Source: Myxococcales bacterium (GTDB lineage Bacteria > Myxococcota > UBA727 > GCA-2721815). Taken from it: DNA of 63,191 nucleotides. The stretch's first letter is position 1, and every line of letters starts with the position of its first letter. The position numbers and the translations under genes were made by a program. This document shows, piece by piece, positions 48,453-51,652 of the stretch. Location: positions 1 to 63,191 of the forward strand of contig PBLQ01000015.1 in NCBI GenBank assembly GCA_002721815.1, read 5' to 3'. Under the pieces are notes generated by a model that was not told the origin of the DNA, did no database searches, and worked only from the letters and a program-made list of their open reading frames with translations.

Positions 48453-49103
48453 ATGCTCATTTTCTCTTGTATCGCCATTTTTGCGGGGGTGGCCTTGGTG
48501 CCGCTTTTGCGGCGTCATCCCATTTGGATGGTCTATTTAGATAAAGTGTTGATGGCACTCATTGGTGGATTGTTTCTTTTACAGATGCTCCCGCACGCCT
48601 TTAAGTCCATTGGTTTCATGTGCTTTGGCGCGGCATTGGTGGGGGTGTCGATTCCGTGGTTGTTTGAGCGCGGTAAAAACATTCGCTTTTTGGAAAACGT
48701 ACCGCCGTTGGCGGTGACGGTGATCGTTTTAGCGCTGGGTGCCCATGCACTTTTAGATGGTGCCGCCCTGTCTTTGGATGACGATCATGGTCACGGCCAT
48801 TCGCATTCCCATCAAGGTTTGGCCTGGATGATTTTATTGCACCGCTTTCCAGTGGGGCTGATGTTGGGTCTGGTGGGAAGCGCGCGCTTCAAGTGGGTGC
48901 CCTGGGCCGGCGCCCTTTGGGTCTGTCTGTGTACGTTTCTAGGCCATATCTTGGGCGAAAACTTTCTCTCCAACCTCACCGAATCCCAGGAAGCCTTGAT
49001 GGAATCTTTTGTGAGCGGGGTGATTTTGCACGTGTTATTCGCTCATGAAACCAAGAGAACAGCAGGTGATGAGCCTTCAGAGCGTCCCCCCAGCCCTGCA
49101 TAA
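48453..49103 (+). CDS. ZIP-like metal permease
   Basis: A 216-residue membrane protein with about six to seven helices. A His-rich loop (DDDHGHGHSHSHQG) sits between helices carrying HALLDGAAL and LLHRFPVGLMLG, which look like the ZIP-family metal-binding helices. It would move zinc or a similar divalent metal. The next gene, 176 bases later, is an ArsR-type regulator, so metal control is plausible though not shown. Confidence 0.7.
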   Translation: MLIFSCIAIFAGVALVPLLRRHPIWMVYLDKVLMALIGGLFLLQMLPHAFKSIGFMCFGAALVGVSIPWLFERGKNIRFLENVPPLAVTVIVLALGAHALLDGAALSLDDDHGHGHSHSHQGLAWMILLHRFPVGLMLGLVGSARFKWVPWAGALWVCLCTFLGHILGENFLSNLTESQEALMESFVSGVILHVLFAHETKRTAGDEPSERPPSPA

Positions 49104-49248
49104 GCAGTGGAAAAACGGCGCCCGAAACCATGAAAAAGCCTATTTTACATATTCTTATGTGATTTCAGGGCTTTTGTTGTACCGGTTGAATAAATCGCTG
49201 CACGCAGCGGCAGGACAAGCAGATCTAATTTGAGTAATTAATATTTGC

Positions 49249-49264
49249 ATATTTGCGCAAATAT
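49249..49264. promoter_or_regulatory. Putative ArsR/SmtB operator
   Basis: A perfect 16-base palindrome, ATATTTGCGCAAATAT, lies 15 bases before the arsR start. The half-site ATATTTGC is repeated once more just upstream (49241-49248). AT-rich inverted repeats in this position are typical of ArsR/SmtB operators. Confidence 0.7.
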
Positions 49265-49279
49265 AGTTAAAAAGATCTT

Positions 49280-49579
49280 ATGAATATATCAGATGTGCAA
49301 GAACTGGCGGATTTGCTGAAGGCCTTGGGAGAGGTCAACAGATTGTCTTTGGTGTGTCGGCTGTGCGAATGCAGCACCCCCCAAAACGCCATGTGCTTGT
49401 GTGAATGTTGTAGCGTCGATGCATCTGGTGTTTCTCGTCACCTCAAAATGCTGGCCCAAGAAGGGGTCGTGAGTGTTGAAAAGCGTGGGCGAGAACGAAG
49501 TTACTCATTAAATAGAGCTTATGTTGCTGATCGGTTGAGGGTACTCGCCGATAAAATTGAGATGAAAGAGGAGATATGA
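49280..49579 (+). CDS. ArsR/SmtB-family metalloregulator, Cys-rich
   Basis: A 99-residue winged-helix repressor. The recognition helix region is VDASGVSRHLKMLAQEGVV. Seven cysteines lie between residues 26 and 44 (Cys26, 29, 31, 39, 41, 43, 44). The CLCECC cluster sits where E. coli ArsR has its ELCVCDLC arsenite site. The extra cysteines suggest a thiophilic sensor for arsenite, cadmium, lead or zinc. Its stop overlaps a downstream start codon (ATGATG), so the next small gene is coupled to it. Confidence 0.9.
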   Translation: MNISDVQELADLLKALGEVNRLSLVCRLCECSTPQNAMCLCECCSVDASGVSRHLKMLAQEGVVSVEKRGRERSYSLNRAYVADRLRVLADKIEMKEEI

Positions 49580-49674
49580 TGAGCAAAGAAAATTGCAAGT
49601 GTGACTGTAAGGCCGATGATTGCTGTGCGAGAAAAACCTGTTCTTGTTGTAAAGACGCGTGCTGTTGCAAGTAA
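49579..49674 (+). CDS. 31-residue metallothionein-like Cys-rich peptide
   Basis: An ATG at 49579 starts a 31-codon gene; the overlapping ATG at 49576 is also possible. Eleven of 31 residues are cysteine (Cys6, 8, 10, 15, 16, 21, 23, 24, 28, 29, 30), in CxCxC, CC, CxCC and CCC runs, mixed with lysines and without histidine or aromatic residues. This composition is that of a metallothionein, but it is shorter than cyanobacterial SmtA (56 residues). GAGGAG lies 5 bases before the second ATG. The arsR stop overlaps the start region, as in smtB-smtA-type pairs. It is probably a thiol chelator of arsenite or a soft metal. I recognise no exact family. Confidence 0.75.
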   Translation: MSKENCKCDCKADDCCARKTCSCCKDACCCK

Positions 49675-50386: not shown

Positions 50387-50809
50387 TTATTCCAAAAGTG
50401 CTTTTTTTTCAGCAATCAAGCGCTGCTGGATGGCATCTCGAGCTCGTTCAAAACGCTCCAGTGTGGCTTCTTTGGTGAGCGGTTGGCCCTTGGGGTCGGG
50501 ATCTGGAAAGGGCCAATGGTGGCGTTTGGTTTGCCCCAAAAACGCAGGACAAACTTCTTCGGCGCATAACGTGATCACCACATCCACACTGGAAGGATCG
50601 ATGTCGTCCACTGATTTAGATCGGTGCTGTGCCAAGGATATATCCAGCTTGGCCATGGCCTCAATGGCAAAAGGGTTCACCCGTGAGGGCTGAGAGCCTG
50701 CGGATTGAATGTGGGCATCATCACCGTAGAGATGCCGGGCGAGGCCTTCGGCCATTTGAGATCTGGCCGAGTTGGCCACACACAAAAAGAGAATGTTTTT
50801 CTTGGGCAT
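50387..50809 (-). CDS. arsC: Thioredoxin-type arsenate reductase
   Basis: A 140-residue low-molecular-weight-phosphatase-fold enzyme that reduces arsenate to arsenite. The P-loop CVANSAR contains the first catalytic Cys (Cys10), and TLCAEEVCP supplies the second and third. This is the Bacillus/Staphylococcus thioredoxin-coupled type. The ATG overlaps the aquaporin stop (TGATG). Its product arsenite probably leaves through the coupled channel. Confidence 0.93.
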
Positions 50810-51546
50810 CAGCAGCAGCCTTTGGCTTCTTTAATTTTTTCGTTACTGGGGCTGGGGTCGATGGCAGTGGCTGGCTGCTCGCGGACACAAGACAGCCGTT
50901 GGTAACAGATGGCGCCCAACCATGCGCCGATAAGTGGACCCACAAAGTACATCCACACTGTGGAAAGATTACCATCGATGACTGCAGGACCCAATGATCG
51001 TGCCGGGTTCATTGACGCGCCCGAAACGGGGCCTCCCATGAGCGCAGCGAGGGCAACCGTCCCCCCAATGGCCAGCCCAGCCATTTGTCCTTCGGCGCGG
51101 TGATCAGTGGCAACGGCAGTGATCACCCACATTAAAAAGAACGTAAGAACGATTTCCATCAAAACCACTTTAGCTATTTCTGTATTGGGCAATGTCGCAC
51201 CCAGGTTGGCCACCGGTCCAAAGAGTTGAAACAGCAAGACCGTAGCCAACAATGCGCCCACGAATTGCGCCAAAATATACAAAGGCACTTCACGCCATGA
51301 AAAGCGATTGATGGAAGCAAAAGCCAATGTAACGGCCGGATTAAAATGGGCCCCTGAAATATGACCACACGCGTAGATCATCACCATGATCACCAAGCCA
51401 AAACACAAGCTGACGTTTAGTTGTGCACCAGGAATGGCATGGATTTGGTGCACCATGATGGAACCGCATCCCACAAAAACCAAAGCGAAAGTCCCTACCA
51501 GTTCCGCCAATGGCTTTTCCATATGTAATTCTGGCTCTGTGCCCAT
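50809..51546 (-). CDS. Aquaporin (MIP family), probable arsenite channel
   Basis: A 245-residue channel with six helices and two pore motifs, HFNPAV and SMNPARS, the classic NPA pair. Coupling to arsC by overlapping stop and start codons suggests it serves as an arsenite exit route, as AqpS does in rhizobia. AGGAGG lies 5 bases before the ATG at 51546. The C-terminus ends in a Cys pair. Water or glycerol transport cannot be excluded from sequence. Confidence 0.9.
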
Positions 51547-51652
51547 CATGCCCTCCTGTGGTTCAGGGTTGGATTTATGAAGCATGGGACTTTCAGCAAA
51601 ATGACGGTCAAGTTACGTTCTGGTGAACACAACAATCCAAAAGGCAGCAAAA

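Follow-up and report, generated by a model that had tools for sequence, protein, structure and literature searches.

Bacterial metallothioneins are regarded as rare and have been catalogued in a few families; those that are tiny and all-cysteine are difficult to detect, being short and of low complexity. Described systems comparable to the present locus are SmtB/SmtA of Synechococcus and BxmR/BmtA of Oscillatoria brevis, in each of which an ArsR/SmtB repressor with a 12-2-12 operator is likewise dedicated to a metallothionein; BxmR and BmtA are encoded by an operon (PMC8790569). This is also the arrangement of the repressor-peptide pair found in the 63,191-nucleotide stretch of a Myxococcales bacterium analysed here (the window), in which arsR and the gene of a 31-residue peptide overlap, whereas the genes of SmtB and SmtA are divergent. 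SmtA folds like a zinc finger and is larger than this peptide; it uses histidine as well as cysteine (PMC10612145), whereas the peptide is of the all-cysteine type. MymT of Mycobacterium is likewise a bacterial metallothionein of small size and high cysteine content that is readily overlooked (PMC7387436), although it gives no sequence match to the peptide. As repressor-metallothionein pairs are already known, the module is of a known kind; the peptide and its repressor are classed here as a minimal metallothionein-like family and an ArsR clade that are both new and tied to each other.

The peptide gene and its conservation next to arsR

The peptide gene (49579-49674, plus strand) encodes 31 amino acids, including 11 cysteines. 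Its open reading frame possesses two candidate start codons, namely ATG 49576 (32 residues, ATGA overlap) and ATG 49579 (31 residues), the latter overlapping the arsR stop codon by one base. A Shine-Dalgarno-like GGAG (49570-49573, plus strand), read directly within the 3' end of arsR, is located 5 nt 5' of ATG 49579 and is better spaced for this start. As the relatives are mostly 30-33 residues long as well, MSKENCKCDCKADDCCARKTCSCCKDACCCK is the likelier product. It contains 35% cysteine (11 of 31 residues), several lysines, neither histidine nor aromatic residues, and CxC, CC, and CCC motifs, confirming the preliminary description of a His-free, Lys-containing ORF overlapping the arsR stop. 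Among the 290 ATG-initiated ORFs of 25-60 amino acids in the window, it is by far the Cys-richest one (34% versus 19% for the runner-up).

No Pfam or NCBIfam family matched the window peptide or its relatives, in line with the earlier suggestion that the peptide may be undescribed. Metallothionein families, including the SmtA type (Pfam Metallothio_Pro), gave no match at E-values up to 1 for the window peptide or up to 5 for its relatives. The sole matches among solved structures were spider-toxin look-alikes (E 0.7), which were rejected because the cysteine pattern and the odd number of cysteines fit metal clusters and not disulfides. The window peptide displays the broad sequence features of metallothioneins, being small, with about 30% cysteine, CxC and CC motifs, and no aromatics, and looks like a minimal bacterial metallothionein. 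The idea of a metallothionein-like peptide smaller than SmtA and coupled to an ArsR/SmtB repressor, as put forward before, is supported. The alpha domain of mammalian metallothionein also has about 31 residues and 11 cysteines, with which it holds four ions of Zn or Cd (PMC9846682). By analogy, an M4Cys11 cluster is a natural guess for a peptide with 11 strictly conserved cysteines. The alpha domain differs from the peptide in its cysteine spacing, without a sequence match, and the peptide is encoded by a free-standing bacterial gene; their likeness would be convergence at most.

When GTDB genomes were scanned for relatives of the ArsR protein, 13 loci were retrieved (67-86% identity), and whole-genome searches added loci L021, L022, and L089, resulting in 17 loci with the window included. 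The search of relatives for an arsR gene followed by a short Cys-rich peptide had been set beforehand as a refutation test of the proposal; such a peptide, 30-39 residues long, was conserved directly 3' of arsR in all 17 loci. The carriers belong to at least six phyla (Myxococcota, Bdellovibrionota, Nitrospinota, Calditrichota, Cyanobacteria, and Gammaproteobacteria). A core of 23 residues (CxCx4CCx4CxCCx3CCC) was identical in length and cysteines in 17 out of 17 loci, and the total, counting the cysteine that precedes the core, amounted to 11 everywhere except in locus L094 (15). The variant peptide of the latter locus (L094:3050-3169, plus strand; 39 residues) carries a CNCK-type repeat extension at its N-terminus. 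Cysteine codons interchanged freely between TGT and TGC (547 of 1200 pairs differed synonymously), and the pooled pN/pS ratio of the peptide was 0.25, with saturated synonymous sites. Free codons, invariant cysteines, and this ratio together are characteristic of a peptide that is translated and functional, showing that its cysteines are under purifying selection. An absence of any functional peptide, the frame having arisen by chance or belonging to a leader element that is not translated, is extremely improbable, given cysteines that stay invariant across these phyla despite synonymous changes of their codons; the retention of the peptide in all loci rules out a chance ORF.

The peptide occurs only once in each of 16 carrier genomes, at arsR, and ArsR proteins below about 43% identity, as retrieved in the first search for relatives, are not followed by it. 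Among 195 genomes of the phylum of the window, the repressor clade was present in four and the peptide in the same four, and the other phyla searched had one or two carriers each (1/292, 1/398, 1/40, 1/77, and 2/369 genomes). This patchy occurrence suggests horizontal transfer. Plasmids and viral contigs were searched for close ArsR relatives as well; as none were found there, these were rejected as carriers.

The repressor, its metal site and its operator

The arsR gene (49280-49579, plus strand) encodes an ArsR/SmtB-family repressor of 99 amino acids with cysteines at positions 26, 29, 31, 39, 41, 43, and 44. Its score was above the cut-off of NCBIfam HTH_metalloreg (58.1 bits; cut-off 55) and below that of Pfam HTH_5 (17.7; cut-off 22), and its closest solved relatives are CadC, the best PDB match (E 1e-7), and CzrA. 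Like the alpha3-type proteins CadC, AztR, and R773 ArsR, it would combine the winged-helix ArsR/SmtB fold with a CxC motif in the helix-3 region. CadC (122 amino acids), however, recruits N-terminal cysteines, whereas the extra cysteines of the present repressor are C29, C43, and C44. Among 15 aligned members of the clade, C29, C39, C41, and C44 did not vary, and C31 and C43 hardly did. The only invariant histidine of these members, H54, is situated in the recognition helix, indicating that the alpha5 zinc site is absent; the helix-5 Asp/His and His/Glu ligands of alpha5-type Zn sensors (SmtB and CzrA) are not present in the clade. The metal-site region of the AlphaFold model of the repressor was of low confidence (mean pLDDT 65), so that this model was used only for placing helices.

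In a tree of 26 ArsR proteins, the clade was found on a long stem with full support (100/100). Its nearest outside relatives precede arsM (L025 and L066), hgcAB (L073), or other Cys microproteins (L067, L091, and L092), and L024 contains an ArsR-ArsM reading frame. These relatives have Cys43-Cys44 in common with the clade; most of the arsM/hgcAB regulators, however, end in a second, AfArsR-like Cys-Cys, lack C29, C39, and C41, and control enzymes. With the loss of the C-terminal Cys pair and the gain of C29, C39, and C41, the metal site of the clade was rebuilt. At L073, which belongs to the phylum of the window, the ArsR gene of the neighbouring clade (at about 1501-1790) directly precedes the apparent hgcAB genes for mercury methylation, recognised by eye from an NVWCAAGK motif and a ferredoxin.

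The invariant CxCxxC formed by C39, C41, and C44 has the spacing of the type-1 site of R773 ArsR (C32-C34-C37, where helix 3 starts), described together with the AfArsR-type C-terminal Cys site (PMC11868830). This spacing favours an alternative in which the peptide sequesters arsenite or methylarsenite, As(III) being bound at the CxCxxC of the repressor and trapped by the peptide in AsS3 units, of which one peptide could hold up to three, in complement to ArsC and an aquaporin. The genes that follow the nearest outside relatives point in the same direction, as does the arsenic response reported for an hgcAB ArsR, as far as quoted in PMC10349881. However, as we read an ungapped alignment with the relatives, the CxCxxC comes later than the R773 ArsR site by about one helical turn. 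In addition, the type-2 site of AfArsR (Cys95-Cys96-Cys102) has no counterpart, no cysteine being present after position 44 in the window repressor and the C-terminal Cys-Cys being absent clade-wide. Sequestration of arsenite is considered unlikely, also in view of the gene order discussed below, although an all-thiolate sensor site without a conserved histidine would also be compatible with Cu(I), Hg(II), or As(III).

As noted in the preliminary description, a perfect 16-bp palindrome precedes arsR (ATATTTGCGCAAATAT; 49249-49264, read directly). It makes up the conserved centre of an imperfect 12-2-12 inverted repeat, TTTGCATATTTG-CG-CAAATATAGTTA (49244-49269, plus strand), the putative operator, which overlaps the arsR promoter region. 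The sequence TTTGCATATTTG-CG-CAAATATGCAAA, or a near variant, was present 22-25 bases 5' of the start codon in all 16 loci with alignable upstream DNA, with 4-10 of the 12 positions of the arms pairing across loci (eight in the window). A 12-2-12 repeat is the operator type of alpha3N and alpha5 SmtB/ArsR sensors (PMC8790569). A consensus scan gave a weak, possible -10 element (TATAGT; 49262-49267, plus strand) with a -35-like TTAATA at 49238, this one match comparing with 1.0 expected by chance, which leaves its position suggestive at best; TATAGT as -10 would entail a very short 5' leader ahead of the arsR ATG. When 13 whole genomes were scanned for operator matches with up to three mismatches, close ones occurred mainly at arsR and those elsewhere were few and weak; a second match in the window genome (two mismatches) sits in repetitive coding-like sequence. 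A wider regulon was rejected on these grounds. The operator was found neither upstream of the aquaporin gene in the window nor, in the 13-genome scan, at the genes of COG0523 GTPases. Being essentially unique per genome, it points to a repressor that appears to control its own two-gene unit only, and not arsC and the aquaporin gene, so that arsR and the peptide gene appear to form a self-regulated module.

On balance, the peptide is probably a minimal metallothionein that buffers a thiophilic divalent metal (Zn or Cd), presumably in one M4Cys11 cluster, and that is repressed by its own sensor. We infer the following for the repression of the module, its release by metal, the identity of this metal, and the number of ions in the cluster. 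A dimer of the ArsR/SmtB type would bind the 12-2-12 repeat in its own promoter and repress the bicistronic arsR-peptide mRNA. Once a thiophilic metal (Zn(II) and Cd(II) being the most likely ones) exceeded its buffered level, it would occupy the cysteines that the repressor clusters where helix 2 ends and in the helix-3 region, and the repressor would come off the DNA. The peptide would then be translated through coupling at the overlapping stop and start codons, and its 11 cysteines would enclose about four metal ions (M4Cys11), lowering the free metal again. The circuit would represent SmtB/SmtA logic in miniature, with the peptide closing the loop.

Gene neighbourhood and the choice of metal

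The preliminary description had tentatively paired the peptide with arsenate reduction and export, given an arsC gene and an aquaporin gene 0.7 kb away. Both genes are indeed present on the minus strand, convergent with the arsR-peptide module: arsC (50387-50809) lies 713 bp past the peptide gene, beyond another minus-strand ORF, and overlaps the aquaporin gene (50809-51585) by one base, in the order aquaporin-arsC. The Pfam matches were clear (LMWPc and MIP), and the scores for ArsC families were below curated cut-offs. Their order resembles that of aqpS-arsC arsenic operons. The proximity of these genes speaks for arsenite as the ligand, but no homologue of either was found near the module in the other 16 loci. 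An arsenic operon as the general context was rejected because of this absence and because the operator is lacking upstream of the aquaporin gene. A role of the peptide alongside arsenate reduction and export was not supported, the neighbours that recur being zinc-homeostasis genes. Upstream of arsR, a predicted membrane protein of 216 amino acids with an HGHGHSHSH loop is encoded (48453-49103, plus strand); its assignment as a ZIP transporter, ZIP-like by eye, was rejected, as it had no Pfam or NCBIfam support.

Across about 245 kb surveyed around the 17 loci, COG0523 (CobW-type) GTPases were the only frequent neighbour family, occurring within about 10 kb in eight loci, whereas nine, including the window, had no such neighbour. 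Assuming one to four COG0523 genes per genome of 4-5 Mb, the chance expectation in 245 kb is well under one. Three of these GTPases (L102, L015, and L106) scored above the NCBIfam curated cut-off for ZigA, a zinc metallochaperone GTPase. Further neighbours were MerC-family proteins (L093, L095, and L106), FUR-family regulators (L093 and L102), members of the HupE/UreJ_2 family (L093 and L011), a HisI paralogue and a DsrE protein (L102), and DUF1826 (L106). Together with the COG0523 GTPases, these make up a set known from zinc regulons. The recurrent neighbours outside the window are thus zinc-homeostasis genes, on which the reading of the peptide as a Zn/Cd-buffering metallothionein partly relies. 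COG0523 genes usually respond to zinc shortage and not to excess. The link of the module to zinc is one of gene neighbourhood only; this neighbourhood and the ligand count favour Zn or Cd.

The same circuit could serve monovalent or very soft metals, the peptide being a Cu(I), Ag(I), or Hg(II) thionein similar to MymT, for which a role in copper detoxification has been reported and whose regulation is unlike that of the present peptide. An all-Cys peptide with CxC, CC, and CCC motifs, an all-thiolate sensor, and the MerC-family membrane proteins close by in three loci would agree with this; yet the scanned neighbours included no recognisable copper genes, an M(II)4 cluster uses 11 ligands, as many as the peptide has cysteines, and the COG0523/ZigA neighbours point to zinc, making such a thionein rather improbable. 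Alternatively, the peptide may be a donor instead of a sink, acting as a zinc store or shuttle for COG0523 GTPases or apo-proteins, or resetting the repressor by taking away its metal. The COG0523/ZigA association and the fixed one-to-one pairing of peptide and repressor are compatible with a donor, but an adjacent GTPase is missing from most loci, and this role is very unlikely. Near three loci (L093:4802-5944, minus strand; L099:16312-17583, plus strand; and L103:12421-13545, plus strand; one in a cyanobacterium), a flavoprotein ending in LSCC-x3-C-x-C is encoded, which is a possible third partner of the module. In a deltaproteobacterial MAG, a protein with a nitric oxide synthase oxygenase domain (E 8e-136) is encoded 0.35 kb 3' of the peptide gene (L098:15829-17007, plus strand).

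A wider set of ArsR-linked Cys microproteins

A second architecture of ArsR-linked microprotein, with an N-terminal Cys cluster and a C-terminal amphipathic helix (33-43 amino acids, e.g. MTAKDKKECCTCCDNSKIAELLRHIASFFEKEK), was observed at L091 (3' of 1501-1830), L092 (minus strand, 3' of ArsR 1773-1504), and L067 (3' of about 1480-1785), without a Pfam or NCBIfam match at any of these three loci. No ArsR-linked Cys microprotein was found in the open-access literature searched; papers beyond it are possible. It is quite conceivable, if a little short of probable, that the peptides next to the present repressor clade represent an undescribed, horizontally scattered metallothionein family whose protein has shrunk to one M4Cys11 cluster, about 31 residues in all, and is always locked to one repressor clade. 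Such a family would match one domain of an animal metallothionein in size and ligand number and would be a branch of the wider set of ArsR-linked Cys microproteins. If so, this wider set escapes gene callers and family databases, and a repressor clade whose genes are always accompanied by such a peptide would offer a route to finding its members. Furthermore, the ArsR set may be seen as a natural experiment, in which the metal site as well as the target (arsM, hgcAB, or Cys microproteins) of one scaffold changed. A minimal metal buffer of 31 residues would, in addition, serve as a handy model and tool.
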